Positions 1 through 6,091 of a DNA stretch of 64,000 nucleotides are shown piece by piece. Source of the DNA: Paracidovorax avenae ATCC 19860 (GTDB lineage Bacteria > Pseudomonadota > Gammaproteobacteria > Burkholderiales > Burkholderiaceae_C); the NCBI RefSeq assembly GCF_000176855.2, contig NC_015138.1:2852001-2916000 (forward strand). The letters are read 5' to 3'. Numbering within the stretch: position 1 is the first letter of the stretch; each line of letters starts with the position of its first letter. The position numbers and the translations under genes were made by a program. The notes under the pieces are model-generated. The model made no database searches. It was not told the DNA's origin and saw only the letters and a program-made list of their open reading frames with translations.

Positions 1-1811
1 GCGGCCAGGGAATTGGAGGGCCCCCGCACGCAACCCAGCAGGCGGGCCGTTTCGTGGGGGACGGTGCGAAAGCTGGTACCGGCGCCGGCGCACGCACCGA
101 GCGGCGAGGTGTCCAGGCCGTCCTGCAGCGACGCCAGCGCCTCCATCGTGCCGAGCAGGACCGTAGCCTGGGCCGCCAGGTAGTGTCCCGCCGTACCGGG
201 CATCGCCACCTGGTACTGGCTGTGGATGGGCAATATCGTGTCCACCGTGGCTTCGGCCCGCTGCAGCAGTGCCTCGCCGAGTTGCTGGGCGCGGTCCATG
301 GTGCCCGCGATGGCCTGTCGGAGCGTCAGCAGCAGGTGCGTCGCATTGATGTCGTTGCGCGAACGCGCGGCCTGGACCATGCCGCCCGTGGCCTCCCCGC
401 ACCGGTCGATGACGTAGTGCTCGTAGTCGAAGTAATCGCCGCGGCCGGAGGCATGGGCGCGCAGCAGTTCCGGCTCCGCCTCCGCCGCCAGCACCGCCTC
501 CCGGAGCGCGCTGAACTGCCCGGCGGACAGGATGCCCTGGCTGCGCAGCATCAGCAGGTGGGACTTCTCGATCGGGAACAGGCTGCCTGCCAGGCTGCCG
601 GGCCGGAATGCGCAGCGCTCGCCCAGCGCGATGCGGCGGACCGTGGCCGCGTCCGGCGGGGGCACCTCCGGTGGCGCGTAGAGCACCTGCGAACGGCTGC
701 GCAGCGACAGCGCCGAGCGCAACGCCGACGATGCCGTGCGGCCGCCGGCAATCACGTAGCCGGCGCGGTCGGAGAAGTCGAAGCGGCCCTGGTTGGTGCC
801 GCCCTCCCGGAATGCGCCGGCATCCGTGGCGTCCTCCGGGAAATCGATGCCCAGGTAGCGGCGCCCGACCTCGGGGACGATGAAGGCGACGGCGGCATGC
901 AGGGCGGGCTCCGGCACGGCGAACTGGCTGCGCCCGGCCAGGTGGCTGCGCACGTACAGGTCGGCGACGGACCAGCCGAAGGCCTGCTCCAGCAGGCGCG
1001 GGATCATGCCGCCCGCGAGCCGGGCATTGATCTCTATCACCGTGGCGATATCGCCCTGGAGCTTGACCTCGGTGTGCGCAGGCCCGAAGGCATAGCCGAC
1101 CGCGTCGAGCGCCCGGGTGACGGTCTCCACGATCCTGCGGGCCGCGTCCGGACTGATGTCCGCGGGGAGCACGTGCGCGAGTTCCAGGAAGTGCGGGGGC
1201 TGCGTGAGGTATTTGCGCGTGACCGCGAGCACGTGGTGCCCGGCGCCGTCGCTGAAGGTTTCCACCGAGAACTCGGTGCCTTCCACGAAGCGCTGCGCGA
1301 TCCAGGGCCCCTCCTGCGCATCGGGCATGCCGCGGGCCTCGGTGACGAGCCGCACGCCGATGCTGCCGGTGCCCTGCCGTGGCTTGACGATCGCGGGAAA
1401 CCCGATGCCGTCCATGTCCGCGGCAGAGCGGACCTCCCGCGTCGCCGGGTACGGCACGCCACGCGCCTGCAGCACCTCCCCGAGCAGCAGCTTGTCGCGG
1501 CACAGGGCGATCGCGGCGGACGGATTGCAGGGCAGTCCCAGCCGCTCCGAAAGGCGCGCTGCCATCTCGATGAAGCCGTCGCTCGTGGAGGCGACGTACC
1601 GGATGGGGCCGATGCCGTACACGGCCTGCACCAGCGCATCGAGCGACCGCGTGTCGCAGGCGATGATGGACAGCCCCTCGGGCAGCCGGCCGGAGAAGCC
1701 ATAGCGGGCCGGGTCCCGGACCAGCCAGTAGACGGCGTCGTACCGGCACGAGGTCTCCAGCAGCCGGTGGCCGAAGCCGGTGGTGTTGGACTCGATATAG
1801 ACGATCGCCAT
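1..1811 (-). CDS. ATP-grasp / argininosuccinate-lyase-like fusion enzyme (3' end beyond window)
   Basis: The frame is open from ATG 1811 to the window edge, so 603 residues are visible and the C-terminus is missing. Residues 1 to about 400 form an ATP-grasp module: lysine 143 sits in IVKPRQGTGSIGV and E260/N262 in the metal-binding EINARLAGG. A fumarase/ASL-superfamily domain follows, with SRNDINATH at 484-492 (ASL signature SRNDQ), then MPGTAGHYLAAQ and LGCVRGPSNSL. Fusions of this kind are known at nearly 900 residues, so roughly a third is missing. ASL-type domains split N-substituted aspartates into fumarate and a free amine; the ATP-grasp half could ligate an amino acid. The start lies 3 nt after the stop of the PLP-enzyme gene, so the two are probably translationally coupled. 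Domain calls are firm; the substrate is inferred. Confidence 0.85.
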   Translation of the reverse strand, partial: MAIVYIESNTTGFGHRLLETSCRYDAVYWLVRDPARYGFSGRLPEGLSIIACDTRSLDALVQAVYGIGPIRYVASTSDGFIEMAARLSERLGLPCNPSAAIALCRDKLLLGEVLQARGVPYPATREVRSAADMDGIGFPAIVKPRQGTGSIGVRLVTEARGMPDAQEGPWIAQRFVEGTEFSVETFSDGAGHHVLAVTRKYLTQPPHFLELAHVLPADISPDAARRIVETVTRALDAVGYAFGPAHTEVKLQGDIATVIEINARLAGGMIPRLLEQAFGWSVADLYVRSHLAGRSQFAVPEPALHAAVAFIVPEVGRRYLGIDFPEDATDAGAFREGGTNQGRFDFSDRAGYVIAGGRTASSALRSALSLRSRSQVLYAPPEVPPPDAATVRRIALGERCAFRPGSLAGSLFPIEKSHLLMLRSQGILSAGQFSALREAVLAAEAEPELLRAHASGRGDYFDYEHYVIDRCGEATGGMVQAARSRNDINATHLLLTLRQAIAGTMDRAQQLGEALLQRAEATVDTILPIHSQYQVAMPGTAGHYLAAQATVLLGTMEALASLQDGLDTSPLGACAGAGTSFRTVPHETARLLGCVRGPSNSLA

Positions 1812-1814
1812 GGC

Positions 1815-2819
1815 TCAGCCGAACGCGTGGATCTCGGCACGGTTCCAGGCCATGCAGGCCCAGTCGCTGCCCGCCCTCTCCGACCGCGGATGCCGGACCT
1901 GCACCGGCCGGACCTCGAAGTGGTCCGCGCACGGAGGGTCGCTGGCATAGGTGGTGTCCACGTAGCGCGACCCGTCGTCCGGACTCACGAAGACGATGGG
2001 CGTGGTCGGGTACTGCGCCTGCAGGCTTCCCGCCACGGCGTAGGCCGCCCCCGTGGTGGGTCCCCGGAAATGGCCCGTGGTCTTGTAGAGGTGGCGGGTG
2101 TAGTGGTCGGCCAGGGCGGCGCTGATCCAGTGGACGTGGTCGAACATCGCGTGCTTCAGGTTGCCCGGCATCACGGTGTTGCCCAGTCCCCGCAGCGGGC
2201 GCGGGCCGTCGGGCTGGCCGAACAGGATGCTGTTGAACGTGTCCACGCCGACCAGCGTGCAGTCGGCGCCGGCCGCGCGCAGCGCCCCGGCGAGGCCGCA
2301 GCTCGAGCCGCCGGAACCCACGGGCGCCACGAGGACGACCGAGTCGCCGACCAGGTCGCGCAACTGGCGCCCGATGCCCTCGTAGGCCAGCGAGTTGTCC
2401 TCGTTGTCGTACTGCCGGCACCAGAACGATCCGGGTTCGGACTCCAGGATCTCGTGGAGCCTGTCCAGCCGGGCCTTCTGGTAGCCCTGGCAACCCTTCT
2501 TGTCGGTGACGATCTCCACGCGCCCGCCCAGCATCTCGAGCTGGCGCCGGTAGCTGTCGTCGATCGCCGGGTCGCTGATCGCGATGAAACGCGAGTTCAT
2601 GCGGTTGCAGACCATGGCCATGCCAAATGCGAAATTTCCGCTCGAGGTCTCGATGACGCTGCCGCCGGGCTTGAGGTCGCCGCGGGCGATCGCCTTGTGG
2701 ATGATGAAGTGCGCGGGCACGATCTTCATCGCCTTGAACGCCAGCATGTGCATTCCCTCGTCCAGGGGAAAGACGACGGCGTCGCGCATGGCATCGAGGG
2801 GGGATTCGTAACGGAGCAT
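1815..2819 (-). CDS. PLP-dependent enzyme, cysteine synthase/SbnA-like (beta-replacement)
   Basis: A 334-residue fold-type II PLP enzyme. ETSSGNFAFG matches the substrate-binding loop of cysteine synthases and VAPVGSGGSSCG the phosphate-binding glycine loop. The usual SVKDR lysine motif is replaced by FKAMKIVPAH near residues 28-37, so K32 (or K29) is the likely Schiff-base lysine and the protein is a divergent branch. Family members displace a beta-leaving group such as phosphate or acetate from an activated serine or threonine. ATG 2819 is chosen because it lies 7 nt after the kinase stop; the frame extends further upstream but that would overlap the kinase gene. It is the middle gene of a kinase - PLP enzyme - lyase operon, which suggests amino-group transfer onto a phosphorylated hydroxy-amino acid. 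Substrate not proven. Confidence 0.8.
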   Translation of the reverse strand: MLRYESPLDAMRDAVVFPLDEGMHMLAFKAMKIVPAHFIIHKAIARGDLKPGGSVIETSSGNFAFGMAMVCNRMNSRFIAISDPAIDDSYRRQLEMLGGRVEIVTDKKGCQGYQKARLDRLHEILESEPGSFWCRQYDNEDNSLAYEGIGRQLRDLVGDSVVLVAPVGSGGSSCGLAGALRAAGADCTLVGVDTFNSILFGQPDGPRPLRGLGNTVMPGNLKHAMFDHVHWISAALADHYTRHLYKTTGHFRGPTTGAAYAVAGSLQAQYPTTPIVFVSPDDGSRYVDTTYASDPPCADHFEVRPVQVRHPRSERAGSDWACMAWNRAEIHAFG

Positions 2820-2826
2820 CTGCGAT

Positions 2827-3726
2827 CTAGGCGGTGGTGTAGAGGTGGGTGGAGATGTCGAGGGCCTGCAGCCGCTTCTGGGCATGGAAAGCCTTGGCGG
2901 CGCACTCGGGATCGCGCGCGCCGTAGAGCAGGCCGATATAGGTGCCCGAATGCGCGGCCACCATGCCCAGGGCGCCGGTCTCTTCCTTCAGGGCGCGGAG
3001 GTGGCCGATGTGCGGATGGGGGTTGAAAGCCTGCGCGATCTCGCAGCTGCGCGTCGCGACCTCGCCGATCCTGCGCAGGTCCGCGGCGCGGGCGGCGGAT
3101 TTCATGTCGTCAAGCAGCGCGTGGTACTCGGAGCACAGGGCGCTGGAGACCGCGCACCGCGTCCGGTTGAACTCGATCGTGTCGCATTCGCCGCCGCGGT
3201 CGATCCCGACGATCATGAGTTCAGGTGTCTCCCCCAGTTGCTCATCGAGCTTCACTTCGCGGTGGTAGAACGAAACGATGCCGTCGTACATGACCCCGTC
3301 GGTAGGCTCGATGCCGCGGAGGATGGACTCGATGGTCTCGGCCTCCGGTTCCCGCCCGTGCGCGCGGGCTGTCGCCCGGATGACGGCCACCATGTCGGCG
3401 GAGGAACTGGCGAGCCCCTTGCCCGCCGGGAAGACCGACTGGAAATGCAGCCGCCCGCCCGGCGGCAGGCCGTGCAGGCGCAGGTAGTCCTGTGCGGCGC
3501 GGCAGGCCTTGGTGCGGCAGGCGATGTTGCAGACCACCACGGGCCCGTCCGTCACCTGGAATTCGACGATGGACATGAGATTGACCGGCAGGGTCACCAG
3601 GAAGTGCCGCCCTCCCGGCAGCACCCCCTGCATGAGCTCGCCGAACGTGCCCCGGCACTGGCCGGTGGCCCGCAGCGGCGGCCATGCGGTGGACTGAAGC
3701 GCTTCTCCTCGTTCTCGTGGAACCAT
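2827..3726 (-). CDS. GHMP-family kinase, PduX/L-threonine-kinase-like
   Basis: A 299-residue GHMP kinase, the length expected for PduX. The N-terminal GTFGELMQG resembles the GELIQG segment of PduX, and FPAGKGLASSSADM is the ATP-binding GHMP motif (PxxxGLxSSA). PduX phosphorylates L-threonine to O-phospho-L-threonine for cobalamin synthesis, but no cobalamin gene is nearby. Here the kinase leads an operon with a PLP beta-replacement enzyme and an ASL-like fusion, so making a phosphoserine or phosphothreonine intermediate for a diamino acid is more likely. The start at 3726 has a good ribosome-binding site (AAGGAG, about 5 nt upstream). Family assignment is strong; threonine rather than serine or homoserine as substrate is inferred. 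Confidence 0.8.
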   Translation of the reverse strand: MVPRERGEALQSTAWPPLRATGQCRGTFGELMQGVLPGGRHFLVTLPVNLMSIVEFQVTDGPVVVCNIACRTKACRAAQDYLRLHGLPPGGRLHFQSVFPAGKGLASSSADMVAVIRATARAHGREPEAETIESILRGIEPTDGVMYDGIVSFYHREVKLDEQLGETPELMIVGIDRGGECDTIEFNRTRCAVSSALCSEYHALLDDMKSAARAADLRRIGEVATRSCEIAQAFNPHPHIGHLRALKEETGALGMVAAHSGTYIGLLYGARDPECAAKAFHAQKRLQALDISTHLYTTA

Positions 3727-3798: not shown

Positions 3799-3845
3799 CC
3801 AAAGATTGCTCAGTCCTGTCGAGAAATTGCTGTGCAGCGGCGCTC

Positions 3846-3874
3846 TTGCGGGCGGCTTCCGGCCGGCGTACATT
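3846..3874 (+). promoter_or_regulatory. Candidate hppA promoter
   Basis: TTGCGG (3846-3851) and TACATT (3869-3874) are separated by exactly 17 bp, matching sigma-70 geometry with partial consensus. Transcription from about 3881 would give hppA a leader of roughly 120 nt containing the pseudoknot at 3930-3969. By inspection only. Confidence 0.35.
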
Positions 3875-3929
3875 GGGACTGTTGGCCAATCGTCTCCACC
3901 CGCCGTCGCGGGCCGATGGGCACGAGGAA

Positions 3930-3969
3930 GCAACGCAGCGGAAACACCCGCGATGCGTTGCGTGTTTCC
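3930..3969 (+). promoter_or_regulatory. Putative H-type pseudoknot in hppA leader
   Basis: Two perfect stems interleave. Stem 1 is GCAACGC (3930-3936) with GCGTTGC (3955-3961). Stem 2 is GGAAACAC (3940-3947) with GTGTTTCC (3962-3969). The loops are 3 nt and 7 nt and the two 3' arms abut, which is good H-type pseudoknot geometry. It ends 34 nt before the hppA start codon. I cannot match it to a named riboswitch class. Confidence 0.45.
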
Positions 3970-4003
3970 TTTCCGTGCATCCCTTGGACAGGAGACGACG
4001 AGC

Positions 4004-6091
<2,088 letters not shown>

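Follow-up and report, generated by a model that had tools for sequence, protein, structure and literature searches.

A Possible Mobile Island for a Formylated 2,3-Diamino Acid Compound, with a DTD2-like tRNA Deacylase Gene, in Paracidovorax avenae

Introduction

What is made by a small operon of Paracidovorax avenae ATCC 19860 that joins a kinase, a pyridoxal phosphate (PLP) enzyme and an ATP-grasp/lyase fusion protein, and what does a predicted tRNA deacylase do in its company? The operon lies at the left edge of the window, the 64,000-nucleotide stretch analyzed here (C1:2852001-2916000 of a one-contig genome of 5,482,170 bases), in which genes were annotated within the first ~7.6 kb only. 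The window cuts one operon gene, and sequence fetched 12 kb leftwards (locus L002) completed it. Our tentative answer, in which our confidence falls just short of even, is that the operon forms a mobile island through which the cell makes and exports a small formylated 2,3-diamino acid compound and guards itself against it. On our best reading, the product would be a formylated derivative of 2,3-diaminobutyrate (DABA), or of 2,3-diaminopropionate, or a dipeptide; here we infer the product, the ATP-grasp step, and the deacylase substrate.

The operon and the proposed pathway

A preliminary description, made from the first lines of the window, had recognized three coupled minus-strand genes separated by 7 and 3 nt. 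The genes and both gaps hold when the start of the PLP enzyme is taken from its homologues, which align from residue 23 of a longer open reading frame (ORF) starting at 2885 and so place the start at 2819. The extent of the unit does not hold, since it comprises five co-directional genes and a convergent regulator in P. avenae, and six genes and the regulator in five Burkholderiaceae loci. To the left, where the preliminary description advised looking for genes for non-ribosomal peptide synthetases (NRPS) or siderophores, the operon continues instead with genes for a formyltransferase and a tRNA deacylase, followed by one for a regulator; an exporter gene occurs in relatives only. The genes are as follows, with window positions unless marked C1.

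2827..3726, minus strand: GHMP kinase, PduX-like, the first operon gene (299 amino acids; PF00288 (GHMP_kinases_N), 1.6e-9)
1815..2819, minus strand: SbnA-like PLP beta-replacement enzyme (334 amino acids from the likely start; PF00291 (PALP), 3.7e-32)
1..1811, complete at C1:2851241-2853811, minus strand: ATP-grasp/argininosuccinate-lyase-like fusion (856 amino acids; ATP-grasp_4, 4.6e-18; Lyase_1, 2e-13)
C1:2850426-2851241, minus strand: formyltransferase (271 amino acids; PF00551, 3.5e-15)
C1:2849402-2850367, minus strand: DTD2-like D-aminoacyl-tRNA deacylase (321 amino acids; PF04414, 1.3e-22, on a longer ORF)
C1:2848493-2849383, plus strand: AraC-type regulator, convergent (HTH_18)

The stop of the fusion gene overlaps the start of the formyltransferase gene. 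All four families that the preliminary description expected from profile searches (GHMP kinase, PALP, ATP-grasp, and Lyase_1) were matched in Pfam. A promoter and terminator scan of the operon yielded nothing informative (2 promoter-like sites against 0.6 expected, and 1 terminator-like site against 3.3 expected).

In the pathway that we propose, the GHMP kinase would phosphorylate L-threonine (serine being less likely), and the SbnA-like PLP enzyme would swap the phosphate for the amine of aspartate. The lyase half of the fusion would then release fumarate to leave DABA (or 2,3-diaminopropionate), while the ATP-grasp half, with its complete L-amino-acid-ligase fold, would couple a second amino acid or otherwise activate a carboxylate. 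The formyltransferase, in which the Asn-His-Asp motif that we take to be its catalytic residues is retained in 8/8 proteins compared, would formylate a free amine. Removal of the product would fall to a LysE/RhtB-type exporter, for which the operons of Burkholderiaceae, Halomonas, and Salinicola have a gene and those of Paracidovorax have none. In the producer, the DTD2-like deacylase would free mischarged tRNA from the diamino acid or its derivative. We infer all substrates, the order of the steps, and the role of the deacylase. What the sequence itself shows is the gene content and order, conservation, mobility, the folds of the fusion and the deacylase, and intact motifs in the kinase, PLP enzyme, and formyltransferase.

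A mobile island and its relatives

Among named proteins, the fusion is closest to those of Paracidovorax oryzae (94%) and P. cattleyae (91%). Of the 17 genomes of the genus, 4 have the fusion, and 13 match the flanking H+-pyrophosphatase gene over a long stretch. In the four regions inspected, out of the nine non-carriers with this gene, a block of ~7.6 kb (L002 8230-15845) is missing between both pyrophosphatase genes, and the flanks of the closest non-carrier are 93-94% identical. These sequence comparisons show the operon block to be a mobile island of ~7.6 kb.

Relatives of the operon, at 62-63% identity, were found in 5 of 299 genomes searched, the family being taken as Burkholderiaceae. 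In these five loci, a LysE/RhtB-type exporter gene sits between those for the formyltransferase and the deacylase. The exporter is present and the deacylase missing in Halomonas dongshanensis and one genome of its family, taken as Salinicola (2 of 151 searched); the Paracidovorax operons have the deacylase and lack the exporter. All Paracidovorax, Burkholderiaceae, Halomonas, and Salinicola loci compared share the four core genes together with that for the AraC regulator (loci L058 and L061 entered only this whole-operon comparison). Models for cysteine/O-acetylserine and homoserine/threonine exporters come nearest to this protein, which scores below their cut-offs.

The GC content at third codon positions (GC3) of the operon is 0.49-0.57 in Salinicola versus 0.82-0.90 in the flanking genes, and 0.44-0.52 versus 0.72-0.75 in Halomonas; these contrasts are plain signs of horizontal transfer. 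The Paracidovorax operons (0.86-0.93) are like their flanks (0.87-0.93). The proteins matched by the fusion and those matched by the deacylase seem to have eight source assemblies in common, five with the same strain name, which suggests that the two are linked in those shared strains. Across the order, the fusion was found in 1 of 399 genomes at E 1e-70, and deacylase relatives across the phylum in 1 of 398 at E 1e-25, in both cases only in the window's own genome. No plasmid copies of the operon were detected at E 1e-60, and weaker limits brought up the wider module alone. In a literature search limited to open-licence papers, no description was recognized as this operon, and nothing was found on bacterial DTD2 inside gene clusters.

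The island is bordered by two pyrophosphatase genes:

3806..6091, plus strand: membrane H+-pyrophosphatase, divergent, right flank, outside the operon (PF03030)
C1:2847671-2848375: soluble inorganic pyrophosphatase, left flank (PF00719 and NF002317, above cut-offs)

The outer neighbours are genes for an HD-domain protein and DNA polymerase III alpha on the left and for an M20 peptidase on the right. Another ORF on the left side (L002 3690-5258) has no family match and is probably spurious.

The DTD2-like deacylase

The deacylase scores 80.8-83.4 bits against PF04414, for which the gathering cut-off is 33.6. Its structure model (mean predicted local distance difference test score, pLDDT, 95.6) matches the archaeal structures 2GFQ, which we take to be DTD2, and 1YQE, assigned to DTD2 by family, over nearly the whole length, with template modelling (TM) scores of 0.81-0.84 by target length at 16-18% identity. 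Residues W90, H91, E146, T148, H149, D172, E174, G176, S177, and H239 are practically invariant in 117 database sequences, our own included. The clade reads THWSG versus THHGP in 1YQE, the sole archaeal sequence aligned.

Among 14 control genomes, PF04414 had matches in four archaea only. All nine Paracidovorax and Burkholderiaceae carriers tested hold a single copy, at the operon, versus none of the three non-carrier Paracidovorax tested; PF04414 is also missing genome-wide from the Halomonas and Salinicola-like genomes and from that of L062, a module locus described below. A deacylase search in viral contigs gave no match. In Acetoanaerobium noterae (L077 5715-7927), the only plasmid-collection record with a deacylase homologue, that homologue (35% identity) starts 56 bp after a gene for diaminopropionate ammonia-lyase (TIGR03528, 573.5 bits against a cut-off of 532.25).

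The available part of one study describes DTD2 as known from archaea and land plants, as acting on D-aminoacyl-tRNA, and as the only enzyme to remove aldehyde adducts of D-aminoacyl-tRNAs (PMC10942605); tolerance of N-modified aminoacyl groups is therefore on record there for the family. We suggest, with considerable reserve, that the bacterial DTD2-like clade could be a dedicated diaminoacyl-tRNA deacylase that clears tRNAs misloaded with 2,3-diamino acids or their formyl derivatives. In the island, it would make the producer immune to an exported antimetabolite that fouls translation; in Acetoanaerobium, it would guard a cell that handles diaminopropionate. If this is true, resistance in a natural-product cluster centred on a new, NRPS-free formylated diamino acid would come from tRNA editing.

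The ATP-grasp/lyase fusion

Pfam matches to both halves, and the intact serine, Lys, and Asn of the lyase loop, agree with the earlier assignment of an ATP-grasp fused to an argininosuccinate-lyase-like domain. The fusion had also been thought unusual; in fact, an existing model, NF002563 (PRK02186), already covers it, and its cut-off of 625 is exceeded by the in-window part (640.8 bits) as well as by the whole fusion (876). Within the loop GSSxMPxKxN, the three residues are retained in 49/49 rows, made up of 46 fused database proteins plus three other sequences (P0029 and P0052, shorter than 800 amino acids, were left out). The usual lyase Thr-His pair, presumably T161-H162 in duck numbering, is Ser-Gln in 45 of the 46 fused database proteins, including the P. 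avenae copy, and Thr-Gln in the other. Stand-alone lyases among the module loci examined below retain Thr-His.

In a lyase tree, 15 of 16 fused lyases fall in one clade (support 96/97), and a single origin of all 16 appears in 30% of bootstrap trees; the Kitasatospora lyase (L076), in which the loop pattern was not found, was left out. The branch to the operon's own group, with its Ochrobactrum relative, is long at 1.75 changes per site, which would fit a changed substrate. In the structure model of the fusion (mean pLDDT 89.7), the ATP-grasp half superposes on 3VOT, an L-amino acid ligase, with TM scores of 0.80-0.84 by target length, and the lyase half has the fold of argininosuccinate lyase and, at 22-23% identity, of EDDS lyase.

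A role in arginine metabolism as ArgH proper was rejected, as the fusion reaches 187.5 bits against the TIGR00838 cut-off of 279.5. The same genome encodes a stand-alone lyase (C1:1884435-1886000, L030 9435-11000) that scores above this cut-off, with 382.6 bits. It adjoins a LysR regulator near a TctC-type binding protein, in an arrangement similar to those of L032, L033, and L034, and may be catabolic for N-substituted aspartates rather than ArgH.

The kinase and the PLP enzyme

That the first enzyme is a relative of the L-threonine kinase PduX is borne out by the names of some homologues ("L-threonine kinase" or "uncharacterized protein involved in propanediol utilization"). The glycine/serine-rich ATP motif and the HSG motif are retained in relatives, and we predict a PduX-like kinase of L-threonine or another hydroxy amino acid. 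The second enzyme had been placed in the SbnA/cysteine-synthase fold, correctly so: TIGR03945 (SbnA) is its best NCBIfam match (9.8e-59, 198.9 bits, under the cut-off of 349.95), and SbnA is its best PDB match, followed by CmnB. Both are, we assume, enzymes of diaminopropionate pathways. The SMKDR motif of SbnA aligns with AMKIV of the PLP enzyme, with a lysine that we take to bind PLP. The preliminary description saw an oddity in this altered motif. However, the lysine is intact in 14/14 enzymes compared, P. avenae copy included, and the residues behind it are changed in 13 of the 14; the alteration is therefore typical of the wider group and not of the P. avenae copy.

A recurrent four-enzyme module

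Of the 20 loci scanned, 17, including our own, have all four enzymes together: kinase, PLP enzyme, ATP-grasp, and lyase. The loci were picked by protein match and some are closely related, so they are not a random sample; L067, a rhizobial kinase with no module partners in its annotation, was left out. The module consists of four separate genes in Azospirillum and Sulfuriferula, and includes an ATP-grasp/lyase fusion on Sinorhizobium and Mesorhizobium plasmids. In Streptomyces and Kitasatospora, it has a PLP/ATP-grasp fusion or separate genes and stands beside NRPS genes, which supports a role in the production of non-proteinogenic amino acids. Three loci are incomplete: a Pantoea plasmid carries the kinase, PLP enzyme, and ATP-grasp without the lyase, and one Mesorhizobium and one Paraburkholderia plasmid carry only the kinase and PLP enzyme. 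Because the module recurs elsewhere, also beside NRPS genes, the idea of a 2,3-diamino acid route, first drawn from the three genes at the window's edge, is plausible and well founded, but the module itself is not new.

Some module loci have contents of their own. At L062 8625-19949 (genome G1003, taken as Burkholderiaceae), the module, at lower identity, is accompanied by an argininosuccinate synthase homologue, a second lyase, a formyltransferase, a methyltransferase, and a major facilitator superfamily (MFS) transporter; the ArgG/ArgH-like pair and the formyltransferase hint at an amidine or guanidine product. At L070 6995-10257 (Mesorhizobium loti pML2037), a pair of kinase and SbnA-like PLP enzyme genes without ATP-grasp or lyase adjoins a convergent threonine-synthase-like gene and a transketolase gene, and the kinase-PLP spacing is repeated in matches on several other Mesorhizobium plasmids. 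On Sulfuriferula nivalis plasmid SGTM_pl1 (L074/L031), the module is found with an iron-containing redox enzyme, a PhzF-like protein, a second ATP-grasp, an MFS transporter, and, nearby, an acyl-homoserine-lactone synthase, in an uncharacterised small-molecule cluster. Finally, L069 6992-14410 (Pantoea agglomerans pNBBC01-3) encodes the kinase, PLP enzyme, ATP-grasp, a glutathione-synthetase-like ATP-grasp, an MFS transporter, an M17 peptidase, and a methyltransferase, and looks like a small peptide cluster.

Discussion

Several observations weigh against the pathway that we propose, and they are gathered here with the alternatives on which they bear. For the deacylase, the NCBIfam equivalogs (PRK03995 models) are not reached (best 41.9 against 272). 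Since the deacylase has no counterpart in the Halomonas and Salinicola genomes and the exporter is missing from the Paracidovorax operons, neither is indispensable. Outside the operon, the A. noterae neighbourhood is the single independent link between the deacylase and diaminopropionate, from one genome, and a diaminopropionate ammonia-lyase above the cut-off was found in 0 of 14 genomes, including 0 of 11 carriers, with weaker matches in two carriers. An ordinary D-amino-acid proofreading role, with a gene that happens to travel alongside the operon and is unlinked to its product, seems to us doubtful for the deacylase. The activity of DTD2 enzymes on D-aminoacyl-tRNA (PMC10942605, as far as available) would fit such a role, as would the lack of the gene in the Halomonas and Salinicola operons and of a diaminopropionate ammonia-lyase above the cut-off in carriers. 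However, an unlinked proofreader sits poorly with the contrast between non-carrier Paracidovorax (0/3) and carriers (9/9, as a single operon copy), with the separate diaminopropionate ammonia-lyase neighbourhood, and with the THWSG motif of the clade.

The ATP-grasp is the weakest point of our proposal, as its constant company with the lyase also fits aspartate-relay amidation. By that route, the kinase and PLP enzyme would use another nucleophile to form a beta-substituted amino acid, the ATP-grasp would couple aspartate to a carboxylate, the lyase would split off fumarate to leave a primary amide, and the formyltransferase would cap an amine. SAICAR synthetase and adenylosuccinate lyase perform an aspartate-relay amidation of this kind in purine synthesis. 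In the 20 loci, the module lyase never occurs without the ATP-grasp, the ATP-grasp occurs once without the lyase, and the kinase and PLP enzyme stand alone twice; this co-occurrence agrees with a joint step at least as well as with fumarate release from the PLP product. The two domains are also fused mainly in one lineage, and the Ser-Gln pair accompanies the fusion; with Thr-His missing, the leaving group may differ from the one that we propose. Nevertheless, we judge amidation unlikely. In Streptomyces globosus and Kitasatospora, the fusion partner of the ATP-grasp is the PLP enzyme, with more such proteins in the database, and the lyase is therefore not singled out by being fused. The fold of the ATP-grasp half is that of an L-amino-acid ligase. 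In uridyl peptide antibiotics, the module of which we presume to be the same as that of the operon, the carboxylate of DABA would have to be free for loading. The loci scanned are few and were selected by similarity. Furthermore, DABA is presented in the accessible part of one paper as the central building block of uridyl peptide antibiotics, with chains on both amines (PMC10643210).

The hydroxy amino acid may be serine, with 2,3-diaminopropionate as product, or yet another, the chemistry being otherwise the same; we hold this to be quite unlikely. SbnA and CmnB as best PDB matches and the ammonia-lyase beside the Acetoanaerobium deacylase both point towards serine. However, some homologue names place the kinase in the PduX (L-threonine kinase) type, and O-phosphoserine, a primary metabolite, should require no kinase of its own.

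The operon might instead supply a building block to a siderophore or non-ribosomal peptide pathway encoded elsewhere in the genome, which would recall the module beside NRPS genes in Streptomyces and Kitasatospora, but this is very improbable: the genome's seven condensation-domain matches (six at C1:4.135-4.156 Mb, one at 5.257 Mb) lie at least 1.28 Mb from the operon, no NRPS or siderophore genes were found among the neighbouring genes scanned (those for DNA polymerase III alpha, the HD-domain protein, the pyrophosphatases, and the M20 peptidase), and the operon has its own regulator and, in relatives, its own exporter. Even at a distance of more than 1 Mb, the presence of condensation domains counts against our proposal.

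If the proposed pathway is right, the operon would be a compact, NRPS-free route to a formylated diamino acid or dipeptide that has spread horizontally among Burkholderiaceae, Paracidovorax, and the salt-loving Halomonadaceae. A bacterial branch of the archaeal and plant DTD2 family would gain a suggested function, and tRNA editing an example of its use in self-protection. The role of the ATP-grasp in the recurrent kinase/PLP/ATP-grasp/lyase module is a question that this operon makes accessible.

Comparison with known systems

Individual enzymes of the operon have known counterparts. The PLP enzyme belongs to the same family as those of the SbnA/SbnB and CmnB routes; its score stays under the SbnA cut-off, and the operon has a kinase and lyase in place of an SbnB-type dehydrogenase. 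The EDDS lyase matches include 6G3I with N-(2-aminoethyl)aspartate, and N-alkyl aspartates are therefore within reach of the lyase fold, although the fused lyases carry Ser-Gln for Thr-His. With archaeal and plant DTD2 (GEK1), the deacylase shares the whole-length fold, a PF04414 score above the cut-off, and the TH, EIGS, and GGxH motifs also present in 1YQE; it differs in its low identity and in its place inside a biosynthetic operon.

The module as a whole is closest to that of the uridyl peptide antibiotics (pacidamycin, napsamycin, and sansanmycin), in which kinase/PLP/ATP-grasp/lyase genes serve DABA. For DABA, the cluster of pacidamycin encodes a kinase, a PLP/ATP-grasp protein, a homologue of argininosuccinate lyase, and an aldolase. 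All four module enzymes are shared, a likeness judged by gene content. The Streptomyces and Kitasatospora plasmid clusters combine NRPS genes with the lyase, kinase, and PLP/ATP-grasp genes, and some of them include an aldolase. In contrast, the neighbouring genes scanned around the operon include neither NRPS nor a GntG-type aldolase; its ATP-grasp is joined to the lyase and not to the PLP enzyme, and a formyltransferase, exporter, and tRNA deacylase are added. Excerpts of other studies state that DABA, presented there too as the central building block, is made from threonine and ammonia (PMC10714638) and that an npsG homologue, proposed for DABA, is needed for mureidomycin activity (PMC4572928). 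The preliminary description drew a parallel with DabA-C cassettes. Excerpts of a review give DabABC for DABA from threonine and liken DabB to the deaminase VioK and not to a lyase (PMC4052310).

For the formyltransferase and export, a close precedent is the gvg cluster, described in the available parts of two papers as a small, horizontally transferred cluster for the formylated non-proteinogenic amino acid 4-formylaminooxyvinylglycine (FVG) (PMC8067088, PMC8064604). Its formyltransferase is postulated for the last step of FVG synthesis, and at least one of its two LysE exporters is required for FVG export and survival (PMC8067088). However, gvg has a carbamoyltransferase, an aminotransferase, an amidinotransferase, and others, and its gene table, in the part available, shows neither the kinase/PLP/ATP-grasp/lyase module nor a tRNA deacylase. 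Tested against the gvg gene set, the operon shares only the formyltransferase, and LysE in relatives, and has no carbamoyltransferase or aminotransferase. What is new here is that, with no NRPS adjacent, a formyltransferase, an exporter, and a tRNA deacylase are placed around the module.

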